DNA of 64,000 nt, taken from contig CAIVZM010000022.1 in the NCBI GenBank assembly GCA_903910385.1, forward strand, positions 1 to 64,000, in the 5' to 3' direction. Each line of letters opens with the position of its first letter. Positions within the stretch are counted from its first letter, which is position 1. This stretch comes from an uncultured Armatimonadota bacterium. Lineage in GTDB: Bacteria > Armatimonadota > Armatimonadia > Armatimonadales > Armatimonadaceae. Position numbers and translations under genes: made by a program. Shown piece by piece: positions 5,170 to 20,961 of the stretch. Below the pieces are notes generated by a model. It saw only the letters and a list, made by a program, of their open reading frames with translations. It ran no database searches and was not told the DNA's origin.

Positions 5170-6762
5170 ATGAAAGTGGCGACAGCCGCTCAAATGCGAG
5201 CCATTGATCAACAATACATTGAAAACGCCGGTATTCCCGGTGTCGTCCTGATGGAGACTGCAGGTGAGGCGCTGGCGCAGGCGTGCATTGAGGAGTTAGG
5301 ATCGGATGCCATCGGGAAACGGATTGCCATCTTCTGTGGGAATGGAAACAATGGAGGGGATGGTTTCGTCGCTGCGCGACGACTCGCGAATGCAAGAGCC
5401 CGGGTGACAATCTTTCTGGCAGGAACCCCCGATAAACTGAAAGGCGATGCTCGTATTCATTTCGCGCCGCTGAAAATCAGTGATGTACGAATCATCCCGG
5501 TATCGGATAGCGCGTTCGAACGTGCGGTCATGGAACCCTTTGATCTGATCTGTGACGCTTTACTCGGCACGGGCGCTCGCAGTCCTCTTGGTGGTTCAAT
5601 TGGTCTGCTGATAACGCATCTGGTAGAAATGGCGGAAGGCGGTGTCCCGGTCATATCCGCCGATATTCCCTCGGGAGTGGACGCCGACACTGGGAAACTC
5701 GTCGATTTCGTCGCCGCTCCCGCGAAGCGAACTGTGACGTTCGCTCTCCCAAAGCCGGGGCTATTGCTTTATCCGGGCGCGTCATATGCCGGTAGAATCA
5801 CCGTGGCTGATATCGGCATTCCTCGCGCACTGCTAGCCGATAACTCGGAGTTGACTCAGGAAATTACGACGCAAGAACTTCTCCGGACGTGGCTGCCGGA
5901 GCGCAAGCAGAACCGGGATGCGAACAAAGGTTCCTTTGGAACAGTCCTGGTGATCGCCGGGTCGGCGGGCATGATGGGAGCGGCGGCGCTGACAGCGGTC
6001 GCCGCACTTCGCGCCGGAGCGGGTCTGGTCATGCTGGCGGTTCCCCACAGCCTGCTCGATACCGCCGCCGCCCTTGCCCCGGAAGTCATATTGCGAACGT
6101 TGCCGGAGACGCCGGAACGGACGCATGGCGGACCGGATGCGCTGGAAACCGCGCTTGCGTTGGCGGATAAAGCGGATGCCATCGCCATGGGGCCAGGCAT
6201 GAGCGGAAACCCTGCCGTGGCGTCTTTCGTTCAACCGTTCGTTCGTCGTGTAGTTAAACCCATCGTGGTTGACGCCGATGGGTTGAACGCTTTGACTTCC
6301 TCGCTTACTTCGGTGCGTTATCGGGGTGCGACTCCTACTGTTCTTACGCCGCACCCTGGTGAAATGTCTCGCCTGCTCGGAATCACCAATCAGGAGGTGC
6401 AGTCGGACAGAATAGGTGCGGTGACCCGATGCGCCGCGACATTCAAGGCAGTCACTTTGCTCAAAGGGGCGCGTACTCTGGTTGCAACTCCTGAGGGTAA
6501 GTTGTCCTATAACCGGACTGGCTCACCGGCTTCCGCAACCGCGGGTTCTGGCGATGTGCTGACCGGAATCATCGCCGCTTATCTCGCTCAGGAGCTTTCC
6601 GCTGATAACGCCGCTCGCGCTGGGGCTTACATTCATGCTCTGGCAGGCGAAATCGCTGCTGAGGAACTCGGTACTGCAGGAGTTATTGCATCGGATATCT
6701 GCTATAATATTCCACGCGCCAGACAACGGTTATATGAAAGGGACGACTTGGACGACCTATGA
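5170..6762 (+). CDS. nnr: bifunctional NAD(P)HX epimerase / ADP-dependent NAD(P)HX dehydratase
   Basis: A 530-residue fusion of the two NAD(P)HX repair activities. The YjeF-N epimerase half (about 1-215) has GNGNNGGDGF at 57-66, DALLGTGARS and the PSGVDADTG loop. The ribokinase-like dehydratase half (about 225-520) has KGSFGTVLVIAGS, a GPGMSG turn, VDADGLN, LTPHPGE and the ATP/ADP site GSPASATAGSGDVLTG. Together they reverse hydration damage of NADH and NADPH in the cytoplasm. The start follows the ribosome site CTGGAGG. The stop overlaps the ATG of the next FHA gene (ATGA), so the housekeeping repair gene is translationally coupled to the signalling island. Confidence 0.95.
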   Translation: MKVATAAQMRAIDQQYIENAGIPGVVLMETAGEALAQACIEELGSDAIGKRIAIFCGNGNNGGDGFVAARRLANARARVTIFLAGTPDKLKGDARIHFAPLKISDVRIIPVSDSAFERAVMEPFDLICDALLGTGARSPLGGSIGLLITHLVEMAEGGVPVISADIPSGVDADTGKLVDFVAAPAKRTVTFALPKPGLLLYPGASYAGRITVADIGIPRALLADNSELTQEITTQELLRTWLPERKQNRDANKGSFGTVLVIAGSAGMMGAAALTAVAALRAGAGLVMLAVPHSLLDTAAALAPEVILRTLPETPERTHGGPDALETALALADKADAIAMGPGMSGNPAVASFVQPFVRRVVKPIVVDADGLNALTSSLTSVRYRGATPTVLTPHPGEMSRLLGITNQEVQSDRIGAVTRCAATFKAVTLLKGARTLVATPEGKLSYNRTGSPASATAGSGDVLTGIIAAYLAQELSADNAARAGAYIHALAGEIAAEELGTAGVIASDICYNIPRARQRLYERDDLDDL

Positions 6763-7691
6763 GAATTCGCAAATGCGTTTATCTCGCCGTTTTTCTGACG
6801 CTCAGCGTACAGTTAGCGGGAGCGCAAGCGCCGAAACAGGATATTGCTACGCCAACGCCAGCGATAAAAGACCCGAAGCCGGCAGCGACCCCTGCAAAGC
6901 CCGTCGCTTCAGGGAAAGGGGAACCTTCTCCCGCTTCCGTCACGTCGCCCGGAGCTTCCGTCGCTGCAAGCGCGAGCAAAGCGGATAAAACAGTCGCTCC
7001 TTCGGTGGTGATATCGGCGGGCGCGACGCCTTCCCCCGCCGCAACAGTCACCACATCCAAAGGAGAGAACATTACCATTACAGTCAATGCCCCCCCGCCC
7101 GTGGAACCCGTGAAATCGAATAACTGGGCGGCTGGCGTCATTGGAATCGCTTTGATGGGCGGATTAGGCTACTTCGGCTGGCGATACGCTCAAAAACGCG
7201 GGATGTCGGTGCCGGACGCTCTTCAGAAAATGGGCGTCGAAATGCCGCAGGACAGTAATAGTCTTGGCGCACGCCCACTGAAGCCGATTTTCGCGCCGGA
7301 ACCGCCACTGCCTTCGCTGGCGGAACTGCCGGTGGTAGGTCCAGCGCCCCGCGCGGTCGTCGCTCCCGGCGCAAGTTCCTCTGTCGAGCAAGCCTACGCC
7401 GGTTCTCCTCGTTTGCTGGGAATGGAGGGGGCTTTTGCTGGCGAATCGCTTGAGTTGACCGAAGGTTTCACTCTGGGGCGAGAAGCGGAAAATACGCTCG
7501 CCATTACTCAGGATAATGCGGTTTCGCGTCGTCATGCGATTATAGAACAGGTCAATGGGGTATGGAATATTAAGGACGCTGGCTCCTCCAACGGCACCTA
7601 TGTCAATGGCGTTCGCATCGACGGCGTTCAAAATTTGCAAACCAGCGACGAAATACAGATCGGATCGTCCGTGTTCCGGTTCGAAAGTTAG
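6759..7691 (+). CDS. single-pass membrane protein with cytoplasmic FHA domain
   Basis: A 310-residue protein. Residues 1-23 form a signal peptide. Residues 24-120 are a low-complexity Ala/Pro/Lys/Ser stalk. A transmembrane helix at about 124-145 (WAAGVIGIALMGGLGYFGW) is followed by a linker and a C-terminal FHA domain (about 215-310) with LGRE, SRRHA and SSNGTYVNG, the residues that contact phospho-Thr in the family. The predicted topology is outside stalk, inside FHA. It shares a 4-bp ATGA overlap with the NAD(P)HX repair gene and lies 24 bp before the next FHA gene. It may anchor a kinase substrate at the membrane (inference). Confidence 0.85.
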   Translation: MRIRKCVYLAVFLTLSVQLAGAQAPKQDIATPTPAIKDPKPAATPAKPVASGKGEPSPASVTSPGASVAASASKADKTVAPSVVISAGATPSPAATVTTSKGENITITVNAPPPVEPVKSNNWAAGVIGIALMGGLGYFGWRYAQKRGMSVPDALQKMGVEMPQDSNSLGARPLKPIFAPEPPLPSLAELPVVGPAPRAVVAPGASSSVEQAYAGSPRLLGMEGAFAGESLELTEGFTLGREAENTLAITQDNAVSRRHAIIEQVNGVWNIKDAGSSNGTYVNGVRIDGVQNLQTSDEIQIGSSVFRFES

Positions 7692-7715
7692 AGAAATCAG
7701 GGATAGATCATTTAC

Positions 7716-9152
7716 ATGAGCGGATTGGTAAGTCGAGTCATTATCTTTATGGTTGCAGGTGTGCTGGCGGGCCTCGTGACCTGGGTCGTTTCTGACTTAT
7801 TGATTCTGCCTCTGAGCGCGATTTTACCGGGCGTCTTTTCTGTTATCAGTAATGATGCCGGTCATCTGTCCGCGCATGAGTACAATACGTATCTCTTGAT
7901 CTTCGCTTCGTGGGGGACATGCATCGCTCTGTTTCTGACTCTGGCGGAATCCTTGCTCACGGGAGTCCGAATTCCAGTGGGGCGTTTGCTGGGTATTTCC
8001 CTGCTTGTTGGCATCCTCGCCGGGTTCATCGGCGGTCATCTGGGTATGGCTTTCTTCGGTCCTCTTTATGTGTCGCCTACCCGGACTCCGGTCGATTTCC
8101 TGCGGAACGTGATCGCGCGCGGGCTTGGATGGGCTATTATCGGCGCTCTGGCGGGAACCGCTCCCGGTTGGGTTAAATGGAGCCCGCGAGTAGGACGTAA
8201 CGGTTTCATCGGCGGCCTGATTGGGGGAATGATTGGCGGAGCTACCTTCGAAATTTTACCTTACCTTCTGATAGGACTATCCTCTCCCGGAATCGCCTCG
8301 CGTCTATTTGGGTTCGCTATCACTGGCGCCATGATAGGTCTCTTTATCGCTCTGGTGAACGAGCTTTTGAAAGAGGCTTGGATTCGGGTTGTGATCGGAC
8401 GAAATGAAGGTAAAGAGTTCCTGATTGAAAAGCAGGAGACCCGAATTGGTCGTTTCGAACTATCCGATATTCCGCTCTTCGGAGATCCTTCGGTCGCTCG
8501 CACTCATGCCATCCTCGCCGCCGCGCCGGGGGGGCAGTTTACCGTTCGAGATACCGGGGAATCAGAATCTGGTGTTCTGGTCAATGGTCAGCGAATTTCC
8601 AGCGAGATTCCTATCAAAAATGGTGATCAGATACAACTGGGCAACAAACTGCTGGTGTTTTATGAACGACTGACTCGTGAGCCTACCGTTGCCACTCCCA
8701 AAGATGTCGCGCCGTCGCGTCCGGTTGATAGTGGGCTCCCTTCTCTCGCGGATTTACCCAAAGCGGAAACCACCTCTGGCGTCTGGAACCCGAGCGGGAG
8801 ACCACAAACGTCTCAAGCGTCTCGAACAATCATGGTCGGCAACAATCCGACATCGCCGGGAGGAACGCCGAGTCGATTGATGACTTCCTCTGGTCCTCAT
8901 GCCGGTACGACTTTCGTGTTACGTGCGGGAGCGGTCATCGGGCGGGACCCGAATGCGGATATAGCAATTCCGAATGATTCTAAAGCCTCGCGGTCGCATG
9001 CAAGAATCGTCAGTGATATTTCTGGGGGATATGCTGTGGAAGATGCCGGTTCAACCAACGGGACTTTTGTTAATGGGCAACGCATCTCTCGCCAATCGCT
9101 GAGTGTGGGCGATACAATAGTTATCGGCGGCACATCGCTTCGTTTAGAGTGA
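7716..9152 (+). CDS. polytopic membrane protein with two FHA domains
   Basis: A 478-residue protein with about six hydrophobic Gly-rich helices in residues 6-225 and a cytoplasmic tail. The tail holds two FHA domains. The first (about 235-315) has IGRFELSD, ARTHA and a VNGQRI turn, but lacks the usual SSNGT. The second (about 392-478) has IGRDPNADI, SRSHARI and STNGTFVNG. The membrane part is not a family I recognise; Gly-zipper spacing such as GGLIGGMIGGA suggests tight helix packing. It follows the single-pass FHA gene in the same direction and is probably in the same transcript. Confidence 0.85.
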   Translation: MSGLVSRVIIFMVAGVLAGLVTWVVSDLLILPLSAILPGVFSVISNDAGHLSAHEYNTYLLIFASWGTCIALFLTLAESLLTGVRIPVGRLLGISLLVGILAGFIGGHLGMAFFGPLYVSPTRTPVDFLRNVIARGLGWAIIGALAGTAPGWVKWSPRVGRNGFIGGLIGGMIGGATFEILPYLLIGLSSPGIASRLFGFAITGAMIGLFIALVNELLKEAWIRVVIGRNEGKEFLIEKQETRIGRFELSDIPLFGDPSVARTHAILAAAPGGQFTVRDTGESESGVLVNGQRISSEIPIKNGDQIQLGNKLLVFYERLTREPTVATPKDVAPSRPVDSGLPSLADLPKAETTSGVWNPSGRPQTSQASRTIMVGNNPTSPGGTPSRLMTSSGPHAGTTFVLRAGAVIGRDPNADIAIPNDSKASRSHARIVSDISGGYAVEDAGSTNGTFVNGQRISRQSLSVGDTIVIGGTSLRLE

Positions 9153-9193
9153 TTCTCAAGAGCGAAAACGTTTCTAACCTTAACTTTCTTAGG

Positions 9194-9383
9194 GTGATTC
9201 GAGCTGAATTAAAGATATTTGACGACAAAAATCAGGCTGTAACTGTTCCGGGGATTTACTCTTGCATTCAATCCGGATGTCATTGAAGTGAAAATCGAAG
9301 GGGATAGAGCGGTCCAACAGGGAAAGTCCCATCAACCGGTGATCCGTGCAATTGATGTAAAAGTCTCAAACGAGGCGAGTTAG
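9194..9383 (+). pseudogene. possible frameshifted small gene between FHA and vWA genes
   Basis: The 237-bp gap before the vWA gene holds two short coding-like frames. GTG 9194 opens RVIRAELKIFDDKNQAVTV, which soon runs to a stop. The next frame, open from 9243 to TAG 9381-9383, reads FTLAFNPDVIEVKIEGDRA and ends IDVKVSNEAS. Joined by one frameshift near 9250 they give about 60 residues with alternating hydrophobic pattern, as in a beta-sheet domain. There is no ribosome site or recognisable family. It may be a remnant, or chance. Confidence 0.25.
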
Positions 9384-9389
9384 GCGAAT

Positions 9390-10814
9390 ATGAACGATAA
9401 AACCAAGTTTGATCCGTACAGCAACGACAGAGTCCCTCCGGCGCGTCAACAGCCTGCCCGTGCAAGAATCACCATTCTGCCAGGAGGGCGTCGACCTGCT
9501 GAGGTTCCAGCGGATACAAACAAGACTCAAATGGCGCCTCCGCCGCAACCGAGACCGCAGCAGGCGCCGGGGTCTTCTGGAGTCTCTATGACGGTACGAG
9601 TCGGAAATCGGTTCGCAGCGGCGGGGGATCGCACCCGTCAGCACGTACTGACACAGATTACCGCCAATGGAACCAGCGTCGCTATCGGCGGTCGTCGTAT
9701 GCCGGTCAATGTCGCTCTGGTCATTGACCGGTCTGGCTCGATGGAAGGCGAACCTTTGGAGTATGTGAAAAGGGCGTGTTCGTATGTTGTGGATATGCTG
9801 ACGCAGGATGATGCGCTTTCCATAGTCGCCTTCGACGATGCAGTCGAGGTGATCATGCCCGCCCGGCGCGTGACGGATCCTCAGTTGATCAAGCAACACA
9901 TTGCGCGTATCACGCCCGGCAATACCACCAATCTGTTCGACGGGCTTTATGCTGGTGGCGCACAGGCTGCTTCCGTGCCTCTGGATGGGTATGTCACCCG
10001 AGTTTTGCTCCTCACCGATGGAGAACCGACCGCGGGATTGCGTGACTTCAACTCCATTGTCCAGCAGGTAGCCGACCTGAAAGCGCGGGGCGTTACGGTC
10101 ACAGCCCTGGGCTTTGGGCTGGAATACAATGAGGAATTGATGGCGGGGATCGCGCGACGCTCCGGGGGAAACTATTATTACATCGCCCGCCCGGATGAAA
10201 TTCCGGACGTTTTCCGTCGTGAGATGGAAACGGTTCTGGGAGTCACTGCCAAGAATGTCAAGCTGACATTGCAATTGCCGCGAGGAGCCACCGTCCGACA
10301 GGTTTACGGATCACAACCGAGTTTTGGCGCTCGAACGGCGGAAATCTCTCTGGGCGATCTGGAACGTGGCGCCACTATTTCCAAGTTGTGGGAGATGGAT
10401 TGGGAACCGCGCCGTCCCGCGACCTACCGTGTCGCAAAGGCGACTCTGACGTGGGAAGATCCCGCCACCGGACGTTCGGAAAAACTATCCGCTAGCGCCG
10501 TTGTTGATTTCATCGCCGACCCGACTATCACCGCAACGGGGGAAGACCCGGTTGTCGCTCAGGAACTTTCCGTTGTTCAGGCGTCCCGTGATCTGGAGCA
10601 AACGATGATGGGGATGCGGACGCAGATGCTTTCCTCAGTTGACCTGGCACAGGCTCTGGAAAGAACGCGTGTCCTGCTGACGCAACAGGGGCGCGTGGAC
10701 GAAGCTCGTGAAGTCGCTCAGGCGTCACAGGCAGCGCAACGCGGCGACGATAGCGGCGCGGAGAAGACTCTTATTGGGACGATCTATCATCTGGATCAGG
10801 GGAAGAAGCGCTGA
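9390..10814 (+). CDS. von Willebrand factor A domain protein
   Basis: A 474-residue cytoplasmic protein. Residues 1-65 are Pro/Arg/Gln-rich and probably disordered. A vWA domain follows (about 100-290) with the MIDAS metal motif DRSGS at 113-117, the TTNLFDG threonine and LLTDGEPT. After it comes a beta-rich domain (about 290-385) with LPRGATVRQVYG, and a helical C-terminus rich in Gln and Ala. vWA domains bind protein partners through Mg2+. Genes for vWA, PP2C and Ser/Thr kinase proteins often cluster in bacteria (family knowledge), and all three are present here within 6 kb. Confidence 0.9.
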   Translation: MNDKTKFDPYSNDRVPPARQQPARARITILPGGRRPAEVPADTNKTQMAPPPQPRPQQAPGSSGVSMTVRVGNRFAAAGDRTRQHVLTQITANGTSVAIGGRRMPVNVALVIDRSGSMEGEPLEYVKRACSYVVDMLTQDDALSIVAFDDAVEVIMPARRVTDPQLIKQHIARITPGNTTNLFDGLYAGGAQAASVPLDGYVTRVLLLTDGEPTAGLRDFNSIVQQVADLKARGVTVTALGFGLEYNEELMAGIARRSGGNYYYIARPDEIPDVFRREMETVLGVTAKNVKLTLQLPRGATVRQVYGSQPSFGARTAEISLGDLERGATISKLWEMDWEPRRPATYRVAKATLTWEDPATGRSEKLSASAVVDFIADPTITATGEDPVVAQELSVVQASRDLEQTMMGMRTQMLSSVDLAQALERTRVLLTQQGRVDEAREVAQASQAAQRGDDSGAEKTLIGTIYHLDQGKKR

Positions 10815-10835
10815 TCCGTTGGAGAACCGTCGCTC

Positions 10836-10863
10836 TTTGAACTTTACTTTGTTGCAGTATAAT
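10836..10863 (+). promoter_or_regulatory. candidate sigma-70 promoter for the J-FHA gene
   Basis: A perfect TATAAT at 10858-10863 is preceded after 16 bases by TTTGAA (10836-10841), or after 15 by TTGAAC. Transcription would start near 10870, giving a leader of about 35 bases before ATG 10906. It suggests that the second half of the signalling island can be transcribed separately from the first. Confidence 0.5.
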
Positions 10864-10905
10864 TTCACCCTGTCAGGATGTGGTCAGGGGAAATTAGAGG
10901 ATTGA

Positions 10906-12069
10906 ATGGCAGAAGAACTACCGTTAGCTGATTACTATACCCTGATAGGCGTCGCCAGGAACGCCACGCCGGAAGAAGTGCGCCGCGTCTATGGGGAGAG
11001 AGTCCGTGAGGTGATCGGAGATGCAGAGCGGTTTGGCGCGTTGAATGAAGCGTTCGAGACCCTGAAAGACCCTGCCCGACGCGCCGCTTATGATCGTCAA
11101 TTACGATTACAGGCGCAGGCTGTCAACAGTCCCACGATTGCGCCCGTGATGACCGGAGGAACACGCATGAACGATAACCCGACTATGGCGGGAGTGAGCG
11201 ATGCAGCGACTGCATTTATGAACGCCTCGCCGGTGCCGGAGCGAACTATTGCCGTCGGAGGCGTCAACTTACCGACTATTTGTGCGATGGATCTGTCCCC
11301 GTGTCCGTTGTTGTCCCGACAGATTTTGCCGGATGAGGGCTTTTGCCCGGAATGCGGGCTGATGATCGGCGCGAAACTGGGCGAACTGCCTCTAGGCCGC
11401 CCCCGACCCAAGTTCGTGGATGAGAATGGTCGCGATTTCCTGCTCAGCGCTGGTGAGAATATCGTAGGGCGTGAAGGAGCGGATGTCGTAATACAGGATA
11501 AGACCGTCTCCCGGCGTCATGCCCGTGTGGTAGTCGAGAAGGACGGTGCCGTCTGGCTTGAGGATACGGGAAGCACCAACGGGACACGGCGCGGTGGGGA
11601 ATCCCTTGCGATGGGGCAAAAGTCGTCCCTGGCGGATGGAATGACAGTTCAATTTGGAGCTATCAAATTGACAGTTGTTATTCCTGCCGAGGTTGAGACC
11701 GTCGCTCTGCCTGCGCCGGAAGCGGGTACCGAAGAGGACGCACCGATGCCCGCCCTGCCAGCGCCGGGCGGCTCCGTTGCGCGATTGGTCGCCGCCGATG
11801 GAAAGGCGACCGTTCTTGCTGGAACGGAAACGACTTTTGGTCGCAGAGTCGGGAATCATGTCGTCCTGACAGGCGATCCAACCATCTCGGGAAAGCATGC
11901 TGTCATCGTCTATGAAGGTGGTACATTCATTTTGACCGATGTGGGAAGCACGAATGGCACCACGGTCAATGGAAAACGAATCGCTGAAAATACTCCTGTT
12001 CCCCTTTCTGATGGCGATAGCGTTATAATGGGGAAGACAGCATTTACATTCCGCGCGCCGACTTCTTGA
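10906..12069 (+). CDS. degenerate J-domain protein with zinc-knuckle-like Cys cluster and two FHA domains
   Basis: A 387-residue fusion. Residues 8-66 match a J domain at both ends (ADYYTLIGVARNATPEEVRR; LNEAFETLKDPARRAAYDR), but the HPD tripeptide needed to stimulate DnaK is absent and the loop is shortened. A Cys cluster at about 124-151 (CAMDLSPC, FCPECG) looks like a metal knuckle. FHA 1 (about 165-250) has VGREG, SRRHARV and STNGTR. FHA 2 (about 295-385) has FGRRVGN, ISGKHAVI and STNGTTVNGKRI. It is probably an adaptor binding two phospho-Thr sites, with the J-like part used for docking (inference). No membrane span is seen. Confidence 0.85.
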   Translation: MAEELPLADYYTLIGVARNATPEEVRRVYGERVREVIGDAERFGALNEAFETLKDPARRAAYDRQLRLQAQAVNSPTIAPVMTGGTRMNDNPTMAGVSDAATAFMNASPVPERTIAVGGVNLPTICAMDLSPCPLLSRQILPDEGFCPECGLMIGAKLGELPLGRPRPKFVDENGRDFLLSAGENIVGREGADVVIQDKTVSRRHARVVVEKDGAVWLEDTGSTNGTRRGGESLAMGQKSSLADGMTVQFGAIKLTVVIPAEVETVALPAPEAGTEEDAPMPALPAPGGSVARLVAADGKATVLAGTETTFGRRVGNHVVLTGDPTISGKHAVIVYEGGTFILTDVGSTNGTTVNGKRIAENTPVPLSDGDSVIMGKTAFTFRAPTS

Positions 12070-12117
12070 TCATTGTCACATTTTTAAACGGTAAGGCGGA
12101 AAGAAAGAGGTGGCAAC

Positions 12118-12834
12118 GTGGTCTGCACTAAATGTGGGACACGGAACGAGAACCGGGCAGAGGTTTGTCGCAGGTGTGCGACCGGTCTCCATCCCGCTTC
12201 GATGAAAGGTAAGCTTGCCTGTTATACGCATGCGAACCGGGAAGCGATCAATTCCTGTGGGGTATGTGGTAACGCTCTTTGCTCCGCCTGCACAATTGAA
12301 TATAACAGTCTCATTTACTGCGATTCCTGTGCGCCTCCGCAAGCCACCCGCCAGGCTTTCGATGCCGATTATGAGCGGATTCCTGTTATTGATCCCGCCC
12401 GCTCTCAACCGGCGACCTTTGGACAACGGTTGATGGCATTTCTGATCGACGCTATGATTTTCATTATCGTCGGCGGAATGATCGGGTTGATCGGATTCTG
12501 GTTTACGGGACGCTTTTTGATAACATCTCCCAATGCAGGAAGATGGTTCTGGATCATCTGGGGAGCGCTTGCGGTGAGCATGACCGTGTACACTGCGGTG
12601 ATGACATCGATGAGCGGACAGACATTCGGCAAGCAAATTACGCAGATTATCGTCCTGAAACCCGATGGTCATATTCTCGACTGGCAAACTTCGTCTTTGA
12701 GAACGTTTATGGCAATTTTTTCCGCTTTGCCTCTCGGGTTAGGTTTCCTCTGGATGCTCTGGGATCCTAAAGGTCGCACCTGGCATGACAATATCGCGGA
12801 TACGATGGCATTTCAGTACGAGGAAGTAATTTAG
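12118..12834 (+). CDS. zinc-ribbon / B-box-like RDD membrane protein
   Basis: A 238-residue protein starting at GTG 12118 with AGAGGTGG just upstream. The N-terminus has a CTKC/CRRC zinc ribbon. A second Cys/His cluster follows (CYTHANREAINSC, CGNALCSAC, CDSC), spaced like a B-box zinc finger. From about residue 95 an RDD domain begins with QRLMAFLIDAMIF, with further hydrophobic helices to about 220. RDD proteins are small membrane proteins, some linked to ion transport; the zinc part probably sits in the cytoplasm. Its position between the J-FHA gene and the phosphatase gene suggests it belongs to the signalling island. Confidence 0.8.
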   Translation: MVCTKCGTRNENRAEVCRRCATGLHPASMKGKLACYTHANREAINSCGVCGNALCSACTIEYNSLIYCDSCAPPQATRQAFDADYERIPVIDPARSQPATFGQRLMAFLIDAMIFIIVGGMIGLIGFWFTGRFLITSPNAGRWFWIIWGALAVSMTVYTAVMTSMSGQTFGKQITQIIVLKPDGHILDWQTSSLRTFMAIFSALPLGLGFLWMLWDPKGRTWHDNIADTMAFQYEEVI

Positions 12835-12866
12835 AGGCGTATTGCCGCCCTCTTTTCAAGATAAAT

Positions 12867-13730
12867 ATGCAGGAAACAACAGAAGAATTGAATGCTGCCG
12901 AGGTTGCGATACCCTGGGAAAGCCGAACGGATCGTCCGGAAAGACATGTGCGGATCGCCTGGTCAGCGCGTACCGATATTGGACGCTCCAGGGAGCATAA
13001 CGAGGACAAATATGATTTTTTTGTCCCGGAGGATCCGGCGCGTCTGGCGTTGCGGGGCAGACTATTTTCCGTTGCGGATGGCATGGGGGGGCATCAGGCA
13101 GGGCAGGTCGCCTCTGAAACGGCGTTAAAGACCGTGATTCGCTCGTACTTCGATCCGGATACATCGTACGAGACAGAAGCCATTCTGAGAACTGCGCTAA
13201 ACCGGGCGAATGCCCTGATTTATCGTGCTGCCAGAGAATTTGACAGTAAGGTCGCTGGAATGGGAACCACTACTGTTGTTGCAATCGTCAAAGAGGACGT
13301 AATAACTATTGCTCATGTGGGGGATTCACGGGCGTATCTATTACGGCGCGGCGAACCGTTGAAGCGCCTGACGACAGATCATTCGTGGGTCGAAGAGCAA
13401 GTCCGCCGTGGAAATTTATCACGCGAGGAAGCGGAAAAATCACCATATCGCAATTATATTCTCCGATCTGTGGGAGTGGATCCGATTCTCGAACCGGATT
13501 TCGAGAGCGTCATCGTACAAAAGGATGACACGATCCTTCTGTGTTCGGATGGTCTGACGGGAATGGTGGATGATAACCAGATAGCGGACATTCTTGGTAA
13601 GGAAAGTCCGTCTGATGCCGTAATATCGCTCGTAGACGCTGCAAATGATGCAGGAGGCAAGGATAATATTACTGCTCTGGTTCTAAAAGTGGTAGATGTT
13701 GGGCTGTATAACGAGAAAATTCATAATTAA
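12867..13730 (+). CDS. PP2C-family Ser/Thr protein phosphatase
   Basis: A 287-residue PPM phosphatase. The metal and phosphate residues are in order: SREHNEDKY, VADGMGGHQAG, AHVGDSRAYL, LTTDHSWV, LCSDGLTGM and GGKDNITAL. It removes phosphate from Ser/Thr using two or more Mn2+/Mg2+ ions in the cytoplasm. The length is normal for the stand-alone bacterial type (Stp/PstP). It lies between the zinc-RDD gene and the kinase gene, so it is the probable counter-enzyme of that kinase. Unlike many partners of PASTA kinases, it has no membrane helix. Confidence 0.95.
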   Translation: MQETTEELNAAEVAIPWESRTDRPERHVRIAWSARTDIGRSREHNEDKYDFFVPEDPARLALRGRLFSVADGMGGHQAGQVASETALKTVIRSYFDPDTSYETEAILRTALNRANALIYRAAREFDSKVAGMGTTTVVAIVKEDVITIAHVGDSRAYLLRRGEPLKRLTTDHSWVEEQVRRGNLSREEAEKSPYRNYILRSVGVDPILEPDFESVIVQKDDTILLCSDGLTGMVDDNQIADILGKESPSDAVISLVDAANDAGGKDNITALVLKVVDVGLYNEKIHN

Positions 13731-13770
13731 TTAAACTTATGATGGCGTAAATTCGTAATAGATGAGAAAA

Positions 13771-13776
13771 TATAAT
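13771..13776 (+). promoter_or_regulatory. -10 element upstream of the kinase gene
   Basis: A perfect TATAAT sits in a notably AT-rich 137-bp gap between the phosphatase and kinase genes. No good -35 is found at 16-18 bases. If used, transcription starts about 85 bases before ATG 13868. Confidence 0.35.
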
Positions 13777-13867
13777 CAGAAAGTACTAAATCTCTGATGA
13801 TCGCCCGATTTTAATAGCCGAATTCGGAATCCATTATCTAATCGCCCGTAGAGGATACCTGTTCCCG

Positions 13868-15814
13868 ATGACGCCGACTCCTGAAAAACCGCAATCGGCT
13901 CTGCCGACACTGGGACGATATCAACTGACGCGCAAAATCGCGCAGTCGAATGATATCGTGTGGGAAGGGCGTGACCCGCAGGTCAACCGGCGCGTTGCGG
14001 TCAAGGAACTTGCGCTGGCGGCGGATGTCCAGGGGCAACCTCGGCGGGATCGGATCGAACGCTTTTTCCGTGAGGCGCGTGCAGCAGGCGCGATGAATCA
14101 TCCGAATGTCGTCACCATTCACGAGGTCGGCGAAGATCGAGGGCGCTATTTTATCGCCATGGAGTTTCTGGAAGGGCAGACGCTCCGTGATAGAATCGGC
14201 GCCGTTGGCCCGCTTCCGATGAACGATGCCGTGCATATCGCCGTTTCCATGGCGGACGCTCTCGATTATGCGCATCATCTGGGCATCGTCCACCGCGATA
14301 TCAAGCCGGAGAATATCTATCTTCTCAATGATGGTCGCGTCAAATTAACGGATTTCGGGATTGCCCGGATCACCGGAGAGTCCCAGTTGACAATCGCCGG
14401 TCAGGTCTTTGGAACCCCATCGTATATGTCGCCCGAGCAGATCATGGGGCGAGAGACGGATTATCGCTCCGATATTTTCTCCCTTGGCATCCTCCTGTTC
14501 GAAATGTTGACCGGGCGTAAACCGTTCACCACTCAGGGGGACACTGTGGTGACAATCACCTATCGCATTATGAACGAACCGACCCCAATTGCTGTGGGAA
14601 TCGGTCCTGCGATGGATGCGGTCATTCAACGAGCGACGGCGAAGGATCCCGCGCAACGGTTTCAGTCGGCTATAGATTTTCGAAATGCCGTGGTCGCGGC
14701 GGCAAGTTCGCGTCCCTACTCCGTTTTACAGGGACAGCCGGGCTATGAATCCTCTCAACGCTTTTATACGCCGTCGCTTCCGCAAAGCCCTACTATAGTC
14801 GGAAACCCGACGATTTTTGGTAGCGGAAAATCCGGGATGGGAACCAGTAATACCGGGAAAAGCGGGGCTTATGGCGCCTATCCCTCGCAGTACCCCAGTC
14901 CGTCTCAGTATCCTAACCCGTCACAGTATCCGAATCCCTCGCAATATCCGAACTCGAGCGCGATGCCGTTGGAAAATGCGCCCGTACAGGCGTCCGCCAA
15001 TCGATGGGGACCGATCATCATTTTGCTGGTTGTGCTGTCTCTGGCGGCTTTAGGCGGAGGGTGGGCGATTGTCAAAGCCTTTCAGAATCAGGCTGCGATA
15101 AACCGCCAGGCAGTTACCGCAGGTCTTTACAACAAGGCAGCTGCCCTTTACGAGCAAAAACAGTATCCGGAAGCGGCGGAAATCTTCCGCGCTGTTCGCA
15201 CCGATCTCAACTCAGATGTGACGACCAAAACGGATGCAACAAAAGGGGAGACATATAGCTATATTGCGTTGGCGGAGCAATCGAAAACCATTTCTGACTA
15301 TCCGGGGGCTATCCGCTGGTATCAGGAAGCCCTCAAAGTGACTCCGACCGATTTTAAAACGCAGGATGCAATGGCGGAGGTGCAAAGGTACCTGAACAAC
15401 GGGATGACAGCTCCGACAAATTCATCAATCAATCCCACCGCTCCCGCAACGCTTCCCAATCCGACGGGCGCAATACGTCCCGGCTCGCAACGTCAAAATC
15501 AAAGCGATTTTTTGAATGCGAACCAGCAGGCGGCGACTACCGCAGCGTCCCTGCTGCAAAAGGGCAATGATTCCTACACGGCGGGCGACAAGAAAAGCGC
15601 GCTCGAATACTGGTCGCAGGCAAAGATGGCAGGTCCCGGAACGCCTGCCTTCACTGAGGCGGAGCGATATTATACCAATGTCAATGCGGGGCGTGCGCCC
15701 ACCGAAGATGGCGGCGAAAATAACGTCTCTGGAACGAACGAAGCGAACGGCGCAGGCGGCGGCAACAGCGGAACTGGTGGTAGCGGCGGCGGTAACAGCG
15801 GCGTCATACCTTAA
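13868..15814 (+). CDS. membrane Ser/Thr protein kinase with TPR-like outer domain
   Basis: A 648-residue Hanks-type kinase. The kinase domain (about 14-270) has AVKEL with Lys46, HRDIKPENI with catalytic Asp144, DFGIAR at 162-167 and the GTPSYMSPEQ activation segment. The Gly-rich loop is degenerate: the expected GxGxxG region reads KIAQSNDIVWEG. A linker of SQYPNP-type repeats (about 335-365) leads to one transmembrane helix (about 380-400). The outer part has TPR-like helices (about 410-515 and 555-605) and ends in a Gly/Ser/Asn-rich tail. There are no PASTA repeats. The FHA genes nearby are probable readers of its products. The lipid kinase gene follows by 21 bp. Confidence 0.9.
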   Translation: MTPTPEKPQSALPTLGRYQLTRKIAQSNDIVWEGRDPQVNRRVAVKELALAADVQGQPRRDRIERFFREARAAGAMNHPNVVTIHEVGEDRGRYFIAMEFLEGQTLRDRIGAVGPLPMNDAVHIAVSMADALDYAHHLGIVHRDIKPENIYLLNDGRVKLTDFGIARITGESQLTIAGQVFGTPSYMSPEQIMGRETDYRSDIFSLGILLFEMLTGRKPFTTQGDTVVTITYRIMNEPTPIAVGIGPAMDAVIQRATAKDPAQRFQSAIDFRNAVVAAASSRPYSVLQGQPGYESSQRFYTPSLPQSPTIVGNPTIFGSGKSGMGTSNTGKSGAYGAYPSQYPSPSQYPNPSQYPNPSQYPNSSAMPLENAPVQASANRWGPIIILLVVLSLAALGGGWAIVKAFQNQAAINRQAVTAGLYNKAAALYEQKQYPEAAEIFRAVRTDLNSDVTTKTDATKGETYSYIALAEQSKTISDYPGAIRWYQEALKVTPTDFKTQDAMAEVQRYLNNGMTAPTNSSINPTAPATLPNPTGAIRPGSQRQNQSDFLNANQQAATTAASLLQKGNDSYTAGDKKSALEYWSQAKMAGPGTPAFTEAERYYTNVNAGRAPTEDGGENNVSGTNEANGAGGGNSGTGGSGGGNSGVIP

Positions 15815-15835
15815 ATTATACCGGGAGCGGCGTGC

Positions 15836-16780
15836 ATGGCTGAAATAGCGCTGATTTATAACCCGAATGCCGGAAGACCCGCAAACGGTTTGATTCCTTA
15901 CGCAACCAGCAATACGCTGGATGCAGTCCGTCGTTATCTGAAATCTTCCCGGCGACTGATTGTCCCCGAGTATCTGGTAGAGACACCGGACGAAACGCAG
16001 ATGGCGGCGCGGCATGCGCTGGAATCTGGCGCTCGTCTTGTGCTTGTCTCCGGCGGGGACGGGACGCTTCGCGCCGCCGGAGAAGCGATGCTCGGCAGCG
16101 GTGCGACTATGGGCATTCTGCCCTCAGGAACGGTGAATGTTCTGGCGCGTGAACTCGGCATTCCTGTCGATAATCTGGAACGCGCCGCGCAAATCGCATT
16201 GACCGGACGAACGGTCAGCATAGATATCGGGCAAATCTCGACCCCGAACAAAAAAAGCGGATTCCTGCTGATGTGCAGCGTCGGCTTCGATGCCGCCGCT
16301 ATCGCGAGCGTCGACCCGAATGTCAAAAACGTCCTCGGTTCCGGAGCGTATGTTTTAGCAGGTCTGGTGAATGTCGCTTCGTATGCCCCGTCTCGTTATG
16401 TGATTCAGATCGACGATGCCGATCCGATGGATATTGAGGCGTTCACCATTGTCATCGCAAACGCAGGGTTATATGGCGGCGATTACCGGATTGTTCCGGA
16501 TGCCAGCTTGTCGGACGGTCTGCTGGATATCCTCATCTTTACTGCACCGCCCAATCAGAATACCGCTTCACAGAAAGCCTCGTTCTTCCGTCAGGTGACC
16601 AACGCGATGCGAGGGAAGATCGCGGAGGAACCGGACACGCTGTACCGTCGCGCCCGCCGAATCTCCCTGTCGGCGGCAGACCCGGCGGATGTTCAAATCG
16701 ATGGCGACCATGCCGGTCTTGCCCCGATCACCTGCGAACTGCTTCCGCGTGCTCTCTCCGTAAAAATCCCGAATCCGTAA
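15836..16780 (+). CDS. diacylglycerol-kinase-family lipid kinase (YegS/DagK-like)
   Basis: A 314-residue soluble kinase. The N-terminal NPNAG, the nucleotide-binding SGGDGTLRAAGEA (GGDGT at 73-77) and LPSGTVNVLARELGIP are family signatures. The C-terminal half is the beta-sandwich with VQIDGDHAG. Members phosphorylate diacylglycerol, sphingoid or other lipids at the membrane face using ATP; the exact lipid cannot be read from sequence. It starts 21 bases after the kinase gene in the same direction and probably shares its transcript, ending the co-directional run. The next gene is on the opposite strand. Confidence 0.9.
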   Translation: MAEIALIYNPNAGRPANGLIPYATSNTLDAVRRYLKSSRRLIVPEYLVETPDETQMAARHALESGARLVLVSGGDGTLRAAGEAMLGSGATMGILPSGTVNVLARELGIPVDNLERAAQIALTGRTVSIDIGQISTPNKKSGFLLMCSVGFDAAAIASVDPNVKNVLGSGAYVLAGLVNVASYAPSRYVIQIDDADPMDIEAFTIVIANAGLYGGDYRIVPDASLSDGLLDILIFTAPPNQNTASQKASFFRQVTNAMRGKIAEEPDTLYRRARRISLSAADPADVQIDGDHAGLAPITCELLPRALSVKIPNP

Positions 16781-18429: not shown

Positions 18430-20961
18430 GTGTGGCAACGATTTACCGAACGCGCCCGACGGGTGGTCTTCTTCGCACAGGAAGAAGCTGGTCGATTGGG
18501 CGAAAACTATGTTTCCACCGAGCACCTGTTGCTGGGTCTGGTGCGCGAAAATGATAGCGTCGCCGCCCGGATTTTAGATCGGATGAGCGTCTCTCTGGGA
18601 CGTGTCCGAAGCGAAATCGAGCGACAGGTTGCACGGGGCGACGGACGTCTCGGGCAGGATATGCAACTCACTCCGCGTGCGAAGCGGGTCATCGACCTCG
18701 CTTACGACGAAGCGCGGCAGTTAAATAATAACTATATCGGGACGGAGCACCTGCTTCTGGGCCTCATCCGTGAGGGCGAGGGTCTTGCGGGTCGCGTCCT
18801 GTCAAAACTGGGCGTTGACCTTGAGAGGACGCGTCGCGTCGTTCTGGAAATTCAGGATGCCGAACCGCAACCGGGTCAGCAGGGAGGACGCCCGCAGCGC
18901 TCCCGCACGCCAACCCTCGATGAATTCGGTCGCGACCTTACCGAGAACGCTCGAAATGACAAGGTCGATCCTGTTGTCGGACGAGCCTCGGAAATCGAGC
19001 GCGTCATTCAAATTCTCTCGCGACGTACCAAGAATAACCCCGTACTGGTCGGCGAACCCGGCGTCGGTAAGACGGCAATCGCGGAAGGCCTTGCGTTGCG
19101 CATTGCACAGCAGGATGTCCCTGAAATGCTCAAGGACAAGCGTATTGTTTCGCTTGACCTTGCTTCCCTCGTTGCCGGTACGAAGTATCGCGGCGAGTTC
19201 GAAGAGCGCATGAAGCGCGTCATGGATGAAGTCCGAAAAGCCGCCGGAGAAGTGATCCTGTTCATGGACGAACTTCATACGGTGGTCGGAGCGGGGGCGG
19301 CGGAAGGGGCTATCGACGCTTCCAACATCATGAAGCCTGCGCTGGCGCGAGGCGAACTGCAGTGCGTCGGCGCTACCACGTTGGACGAGTTCCGCAAGTA
19401 TATCGAGCGGGATGCCGCGCTTGCGCGTCGCTTCCAGATGGTAAAGGTTGCTGAACCGTCGATTGATGAAGCGGTTGAAATCCTGCGCGGTCTGCGCCAT
19501 CGCTACGAGGAGCATCACAAGGTGAAAATCACCGATGCTGCCCTCGAAGCGGCGGCTCGTCTGGGGGATCGCTATATTTCCGACCGATTCCTGCCGGACA
19601 AGGCAATTGACCTGATGGACGAAGCGGCATCGAAAGTGCGATTGCGCCATGCGATGGCGCCGACTCCTCTTCGTACCGCCAAACAGGAATTGATGCAGGT
19701 TGAGAAGGAAATCAACGCTCTGCCGCAACGGGGCGAGTATGACCGTGCGCGATTTCTGGACGAGCAAAAGGCATACCTTCGGGAGCGTATCCGGGAGATG
19801 CAGGCCAAGTGGGACGAGGAGCGAAACGCCGCGCCGATGGAAGTCGGTGAGGATGAAATCGCGCAGATCGTTTACTCGTGGACGGGTATTCCGGTGAACC
19901 GGTTAGTAGAGACGGAAACGCAGAAGCTTCTCAAAATGGAGGAGGAACTGCACAAACGGATTGTTTCGCAACACGAGGCTATTGTCGCTGTTTCCAAAGC
20001 GGTGCGTCGTGCGCGCTCCGGTCTGAAAGACCCGAAACGCCCGATGGGAACGTTCCTGTTCCTGGGGCCGACCGGTGTCGGTAAGACCGAACTGGCGCGG
20101 GCGTTGTCCCAGTTCCTGTTCGAGAAGGAAGATTCGCTCATCCGTATCGACATGAGCGAATACATGGAGCGGTTCGCCGTTTCCCGCCTCGTGGGGGCGC
20201 CTCCCGGTTACGTCGGTTACGACGAAGGCGGGCAGCTCACCGAAGCGGTACGACGTCAACCGTATTCCGTCATCCTGCTCGATGAGATTGAAAAAGCGCA
20301 CCCGGAAGTCTTCAATATCCTGTTGCAGGTGATGGAAGACGGACGCTTGACCGATTCACAGGGGCGAGTGATTGACTTCAAGAACACGGTCATTATCATG
20401 ACCAGTAATGTCGGGTCGCAGTTGATCAACCGCGAACAGACGATTGGTCTGCGGAAAGACCCGCCCAAAGATGAGACGGAAAAAGATTACGAAGCGATGA
20501 AGAAGCGCATCAACGAAGAGTTGAAGCGAGTCTTCCGCCCGGAATTTATCAACCGTCTGGACGAAGTCATCGTGTTCCACTCGTTGACTGCCGCCAATAT
20601 TCGCAATATTGTCAGCATCATTCTGGGCGGAATCAAGAAGCAGGTCGTTCAGCAGGGAATGGAACTGGAAATCTCTGACAGCGTTCTGGAGCGATTGGCG
20701 ACAGAAGGCTTCGATCCGCAGTTCGGGGCGCGTCCATTACGTCGCGCCGTACAACGACTGATCGAAGACCCGTTGTCGGAAGAAGTTTTGCTGGGTCGCT
20801 TCAGTTCCGGAGATATCATCCGCGCTGATGTTGACGGTGCTGATGAAAAGTCGTCGATTATCTTCCGCAAAGTCGAATCCGGTGGGGATTTCGACGACTC
20901 TGAAGCGGCTTTATCGGCTCCCTTCTCGTTGCCGGAACTGCCGCCACCGGGCGAGGGTTAA
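18430..20961 (+). CDS. clpC: ClpC-type AAA+ unfoldase, copy 1
   Basis: An 843-residue Clp/Hsp100 ATPase. Two N-terminal Clp-N repeats (about 1-150) contain STEHLLLGL and [13 protein letters not shown]1 has GEPGVGKTA and [15 protein letters not shown] short UVR-like middle segment (about 410-455) follows. NBD2 has [13 protein letters not shown] and the Walker [12 protein letters not shown]. It unfolds proteins for ClpP; the length and middle region fit ClpC rather than ClpB. The start is GTG 18430, with GAGGAGG at 18412-18418. It is followed by a strong terminator, so it is transcribed alone. A second copy lies at 56705. Confidence 0.93.

Follow-up and report, generated by a model that had tools for sequence, protein, structure and literature searches.

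The 64,000-nucleotide stretch of DNA analysed here (hereafter the window; positions 1 to 64,000 of contig CAIVZM010000022.1 in GenBank assembly GCA_903910385.1, an uncultured Armatimonadota bacterium) carries eight open reading frames (ORFs) on the + strand immediately 3' of the nnr gene, which encode three FHA proteins with five FHA domains among them, a vWA protein, an RDD protein, a PP2C phosphatase, a membrane serine/threonine kinase, and a lipid kinase. We propose, with moderate confidence, that this locus is a phosphorylation-controlled assembly switch, in which a dedicated kinase and phosphatase would govern a complex resembling the archaeal ArnA–ArnB (ArnAB) pair that is tethered to membrane FHA proteins; the proteins probably join into a membrane-linked complex once the dedicated kinase phosphorylates them. 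This reading draws on the observed gene set, gene order, co-occurrence, domain architecture, FHA pocket states, motif arrays, and P-loop signature of the kinase. The gene content had been listed in a preliminary description made from the sequence alone and was borne out by the ORFs and by Pfam and NCBIfam; the resemblance of the vWA protein to ArnB in domain build, the threonine-motif leaders shared by two proteins, the glycine-free P-loop, and the state of the FHA pockets (four intact, the fifth degenerate) go beyond it.

Gene order and co-occurrence in Armatimonadota

The search for relatives of the FHA-FHA protein, which the preliminary description called a degenerate J-FHA adaptor, covered 121 genomes of the phylum, from which 60 stretches were taken, and 80 further loci, nearly all titled Armatimonadota or unnamed bacteria, were the best 80 of a contig scan; neighbourhoods were read using gene calls and phmmer with the window's domains. 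The order NNR–FHA1–FHA2–vWA–FHA-FHA–PP2C–kinase was found repeatedly across Armatimonadota, in many families, and no reversed module gene was present among 105 distinct vWA loci; because the order recurs without reversals, the grouping is not due to chance. The record titles of the 80 further loci place the system in Armatimonadota, including Chthonomonadales, Fimbriimonadales, and others. Among loci whose contig leaves room, the FHA-FHA gene lies downstream of the vWA gene in 63 of 99, PP2C follows in 59/93 and the kinase in 42/79, and FHA2 precedes vWA in 58/92; PP2C comes after FHA-FHA in most loci, and nnr is upstream of the module in 57/81. Locus L098 was overlooked by these adjacency counts, though its FHA-FHA gene was seen in the neighbourhood reading. 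Many of the exceptions are accounted for by Fimbriimonadia, where FHA-FHA–PP2C is located elsewhere, apart from vWA; in family f5 the cluster is broken between FHA2 and vWA instead, so two lineages have two different break points.

Orthologues of the vWA and FHA-FHA proteins were both present in 37 genomes and both absent from 16, with three discordant genomes (one at a contig end), and this co-occurrence holds even in Fimbriimonadia, where the genes are unlinked; as the genomes are related, its Fisher value is not a true probability. The locus is apparently an ancestral, phylum-wide operon. The scattered, unlinked homologues that the preliminary description had named as grounds for refutation were not what the neighbourhood search across Armatimonadota returned. 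That description had also called the combination unfamiliar; the operon is phylum-wide and not peculiar to this genome. The lipid kinase gene adjoins the module only here and in the near relative L098, and the Zn-RDD gene was found only in f1, one f2 genus, and L106, which rules both out as core parts: the lipid kinase is a local neighbour with no part in the module, and the RDD protein a lineage-specific add-on. The latter's description as a zinc-ribbon/B-box-like RDD membrane protein stands for the RDD domain, while its zinc-ribbon and B-box matches fall under the cut-off, yet Cys pairs are visible. The nnr gene is a housekeeping gene and probably not a working part of the module.

We do not claim that the module is confined to Armatimonadota; the survey covered genomes of that phylum. 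On plasmids of cyanobacteria, Deinococcus, and Meiothermus, vWA relatives lie without FHA, PP2C, or kinase genes beside them. Armatimonadota-type vWA loci are also held by L133 and L174, which are titled Actinomycetota bacterium and Methanoregulaceae archaeon and are likely mislabelled or contaminated bins. In one closed genome (G022; L062:3693-5344), nnr appears to be divided into two overlapping ORFs, either through a frameshift or a real split.

Protein architecture, threonine motif, and kinase

The top PDB match of a 23-orthologue vWA profile is ArnB (8s05_A, E 5e-20), with the alignment spanning the vWA domain, beta-sandwich, and helical bundle. An AlphaFold model of the vWA protein (predicted local distance difference test score, pLDDT, 85) places these three parts in the same order after a disordered leader, and a Foldseek search with the model returned ArnB first (TM-score 0.78), then a Catenulispora vWA protein, and then the ArnB paralogue vWA2. 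The vWA protein is thus predicted to have the three-domain build of archaeal ArnB. A further ArnB-like vWA protein is encoded on contig C55 of the same genome (L262:501-1829) beside a gene that reads MerR-like; plasmids of cyanobacteria, Deinococcus, and Meiothermus likewise carry MerR–vWA pairs.

The profile of the adjoining FHA-FHA protein matches ArnA (5a8i, E 2.5e-18), and 74 of 84 orthologues carry ArnA's Cys spacing, C-x2-C-x10-C-x2-C, followed by FHA. In the window's protein, as in L046, L047, and L049, the usual second Cys is lost and an upstream Cys is present instead. The J region lacks the HPD motif in every J-bearing orthologue and is therefore not a standard DnaK co-chaperone, which rules out an active J co-chaperone; because HPD is missing from every lineage with a J region, the region seems to have taken on a different role and not to have decayed recently. 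The "J-FHA adaptor" is accordingly a Zn-ribbon–FHA–FHA protein to which an HPD-less J region is added in some lineages.

The phosphothreonine (pThr) pocket residues Arg, Ser, His, and Asn are intact in FHA1 (61/61), in the second FHA domain of FHA2 (62/62), and in both domains of the FHA-FHA protein (at least 78 of 83). The first domain of FHA2 is degenerate phylum-wide, with the pocket Ser lost in 57/62, which leaves four of the five pockets at the locus intact. In most lineages FHA1 has a beta-rich ectodomain, in place of which the window's family has a Pro/Ala-rich stretch; L106 provides another FHA1 example, the ectodomain of L109 is carboxypeptidase-regulatory-like by Pfam, and a model of a relative's ectodomain was beta-rich with no informative fold match. 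The linker between the two domains of FHA2 holds a Zn ribbon (CPYCGxxKDAxGxCxC) in most relatives (L055, L061, L062, L068, L078, L087, L091, L094), and none is present there in the window.

The vWA and FHA-FHA proteins are unrelated, yet one Thr motif, …[RK]T[QM][MI][GA]…, recurs in the disordered leaders of both, in repeats such as DRTQMGG, EKTMIA, and PTMIGG. The motif was first noticed by eye, so most weight falls on a reciprocal test in which a scoring matrix trained on one leader set, with similar sequences thinned, was applied to the other: the vWA-trained matrix found 99 sites in FHA-FHA leaders vs 4.1 in shuffles, and the FHA-FHA-trained matrix 207 sites in vWA leaders vs 6.3. There was no excess in 1084 control ORFs of the same loci (331 matches vs 330 shuffled), and a proteome-wide substrate mark was ruled out by the absence of any other leader array among 1257 ORFs in 1.56 Mb of a closed genome. 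The vWA helical bundle also has fixed Thr motifs of a similar kind, for which the counts derive from homologous, hence non-independent, sequences. The best copies in the window are NKTQMAP in the vWA leader, PERTIAVG in the FHA-FHA protein, and GMRTQ and AEKTLIGT in the bundle.

Module kinases have a glycine-free nucleotide loop of the form RE[IL][AG]RSND[IV]VYEA, with the invariant signature REIARSNDIVYEA and, in the window, the version RKIAQSNDIVWEG; ARSND stands in place of the glycine loop, and the Lys, HRD, and DFG elements are retained. Searches with the first 61 residues found at most one ARSND-type kinase per genome, in module-bearing genomes: kinase and vWA were both present in 29 genomes, both absent from 17, and discordant (+-) in one. 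All 13 unlinked kinase copies (13/13) carry ARSND, and the module-less genome G045 gave a weak match only, with a normal GRGAMGAVY loop. On this sequence evidence, the ARSND kinase is tied to the module even where it is unlinked. Its closest solved relatives in the PDB are PknA and PknB; no PASTA domains were found in the module kinase, in which a TPR region follows the transmembrane segment and NF033483 scores below its cut-off.

The whole genome holds five kinase domains above the cut-off and seven FHA domains, of which five are at the locus and two in one protein of another contig. That contig, C5 (L178:9645-14452), bears a second FHA cluster, in which a FhaA_N–FHA–FHA protein is accompanied by a PP2C of its own and by a kinase whose P-loop is normal. 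The activation loop of the C5 kinase is without the usual Thr-rich segment, and related clusters are present in L041, L095, and L096.

Coordinates and neighbouring sequence

The features of the locus are listed in Table 1. From nnr through the lipid kinase gene, the successive gaps are -4, 24, 237, 91, 48, 32, 137, and 21 bases, and a promoter scan gave no more matches than expected by chance. A ClpC-type AAA+ protease ATPase is encoded a short distance downstream (18430-20961), with no sign of module membership.

Table 1. Genes and motif sites of the locus, in window coordinates
Feature	Position	Strand	Support
nnr, bifunctional NAD(P)H-hydrate epimerase/dehydratase	5170..6762	+	Pfam Carb_kinase 5e-54, YjeF_N 3e-39
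FHA1: signal-peptide-like N-terminus, transmembrane segment, one intact cytoplasmic FHA	6759..7691	+	FHA 8.5e-17
FHA2: multi-transmembrane N-terminus, first FHA degenerate, second intact	7716..9152	+	FHA x2
vWA protein, ArnB-like: disordered leader (residues 1-61), vWA with metal ion-dependent adhesion site (MIDAS), beta-sandwich, C-terminal helical bundle	9390..10814	+	vWA 6e-21
vWA leader Thr motif DTNKTQM (T46), strongest site in the window	9516..9536	+	matrix score 8.3, threshold 3.1
FHA-FHA protein, ArnA-like: HPD-less J region, Thr-motif linker, four-Cys ribbon, two intact FHA	10906..12069	+	FHA x2, DnaJ E 8e-8
FHA-FHA protein linker Thr motif VPERTIAVG (T114)	11233..11259	+	matrix score 6.6
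Zn-ribbon RDD membrane protein	12118..12834	+	RDD 1e-24
PP2C phosphatase, Stp1 type	12867..13730	+	NF033484 253 bits, cut-off 230 (Stp1 equivalog)
Membrane Ser/Thr kinase: glycine-free P-loop (RKIAQSNDIVWEG), transmembrane segment, then TPR region	13868..15814	+	Pkinase 1e-46
YegS-type lipid kinase	15836..16780	+	DAGK_cat/YegS_C

Proposed mechanism, alternatives, and known systems

In Sulfolobus, the zinc finger of ArnA binds the beta-sandwich and bundle of ArnB, the kinase ArnC phosphorylates the bundle, and the FHA domain of ArnA then binds it (PMC12852372, PMC6509490). At the Armatimonadota locus, the membrane kinase would phosphorylate the leader Thr motifs of the vWA and FHA-FHA proteins, and probably also the vWA helical bundle, and PP2C would strip the phosphates off. 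The phosphorylated motifs would be read by FHA domains, with four readers available, two of them in the membrane; the Zn ribbon would hold the vWA/FHA-FHA pair loosely, FHA–pThr contacts would lock it, as in archaeal ArnAB, and the intact FHA domains of FHA1 and FHA2 would bring the soluble pair to the membrane. The membrane-centred pThr module put forward in the preliminary description thereby remains the best reading, with the lipid kinase taken out and the RDD protein set aside as an add-on. A further proposal, which we advance only tentatively, is that the locus is a bacterial counterpart of ArnAB, that is, a phylum-wide pThr module with its own kinase subfamily and its own docking motif on two unrelated proteins, in which the kinase mainly builds one membrane-tethered FHA–vWA complex.

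Several points weigh against an assembly switch. We infer the phosphorylation step, the binding of the motifs by FHA domains, membrane tethering, and any output, and with a P-loop devoid of glycine the kinase may have little or no activity. Strong motif copies are few in the window's own leaders, and the linkers of the serine/threonine kinases and of FHA1 and FHA2 are hardly enriched in the motif. The leader-derived matrix scores the ArnB sites below threshold, leaving an equation of the motif with ArnB phosphosites unsupported. The ArnB fold is widespread, and a vWA paralogue of the same genome also matches ArnB (E 2e-8); the window's ribbon (residues ~126-150) keeps four Cys with altered spacing, and the C-x2-C-x10-C-x2-C spacing is itself common among zinc ribbons.

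The Thr motif on the FHA-FHA leader would also suit an intramolecular switch of the GarA/OdhI/DgcB type: once phosphorylated, the leader would dock on an FHA domain of the same protein and thereby release or shut out other partners, metabolic enzymes for example, and the vWA protein would be a substrate in parallel and not a binding partner; the FHA domains match GarA, OdhI, and DgcB, including some structures with phosphorylated N-terminal peptides. We regard this as unlikely, given that the same motif array is present on the non-homologous vWA protein, whose gene is linked and co-occurs, and that there are two FHA domains and two membrane FHA proteins to account for. Less likely again is a variant of the actinobacterial FhaA/FhaB–PstP–PknA/B cell-growth locus that controls envelope synthesis: although PknA/PknB are the nearest solved kinases and that locus too groups FHA proteins with PP2C and a membrane kinase, no PASTA, RodA, or PBP gene is present at this locus, the vWA protein and P-loop signature are foreign to that one, and FhaA_N–FHA–FHA with its own PP2C and kinase is separately encoded on contig C5. 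A growth locus of FhaA type proper is ruled out, as FhaA_N is absent from all three FHA proteins here and found on the C5 protein instead. It is highly improbable that the genes form a defence or stress island of TerY-P or MoxR–vWA type, or are neighbours without functional unity. Kinase–PP2C–vWA groups do occur in such systems (PMC7159879) and PADLOC kinase models match, but these are general kinase models, so a defence island on their account is ruled out; moreover, the locus has no MoxR, Ter, or effector gene, is conserved in many families of the phylum, and has parts tied beyond proximity by the motif and kinase signature.

Every component is of a known kind. Our literature search turned up no account of such a gene combination, of an ArnAB-like pair in bacteria that comes with its kinase and phosphatase, of motif arrays shared in this way, or of a P-loop like that of the module kinases, and no paper on FHA proteins in Armatimonadetes. 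If the assembly switch is correct, a kind of phospho-switch known in detail from archaeal ArnA–ArnB would also be present in a bacterial phylum, where a single operon encodes the kinase, the phosphatase, and the readers. The model predicts that one repeated Thr motif is phosphorylated by a dedicated kinase, unusual in its nucleotide loop, and is recognised by FHA domains of the same operon; the cultured relatives Chthonomonas and Fimbriimonas make it testable.

Among known systems, TerY-P triads and actinobacterial GAP1-N2 neighbourhoods likewise encode a kinase, PP2C, and vWA protein together (PMC7159879), whereas the Armatimonadota locus is without Ter, MoxR, and GAP1-N2, has four intact FHA domains, and is phylum-wide. 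The FhaA/FhaB–PstP–PknA/B locus resembles it in uniting FHA proteins, PP2C, and a membrane Hanks kinase, with a kinase domain nearest PknA/PknB, and differs in FhaA_N, RodA, PBP, and PASTA, all absent here. GarA/OdhI and DgcB, with their phosphorylated N-terminal tails, share a Thr-bearing leader before FHA; Armatimonadota add arrays of a different motif, a Zn ribbon, a second FHA domain, and a second motif-bearing partner. The likeness to the ArnA–ArnB archaellum switch of Sulfolobus (PDB 8s05, 5a8i, 5a8j; PMC12852372) lies in a protein of vWA, beta-sandwich, and helical bundle adjoining a Zn-ribbon–FHA protein, and in a kinase and phosphatase, which in Sulfolobus act on ArnA–ArnB. Unlike ArnAB, the Armatimonadota locus is bacterial, its motif does not match the ArnB sites, its ArnA-like protein has two FHA domains, both proteins bear Thr-motif leaders, and its operon includes two membrane FHA proteins, a PknA/B-like kinase, and a PP2C phosphatase.

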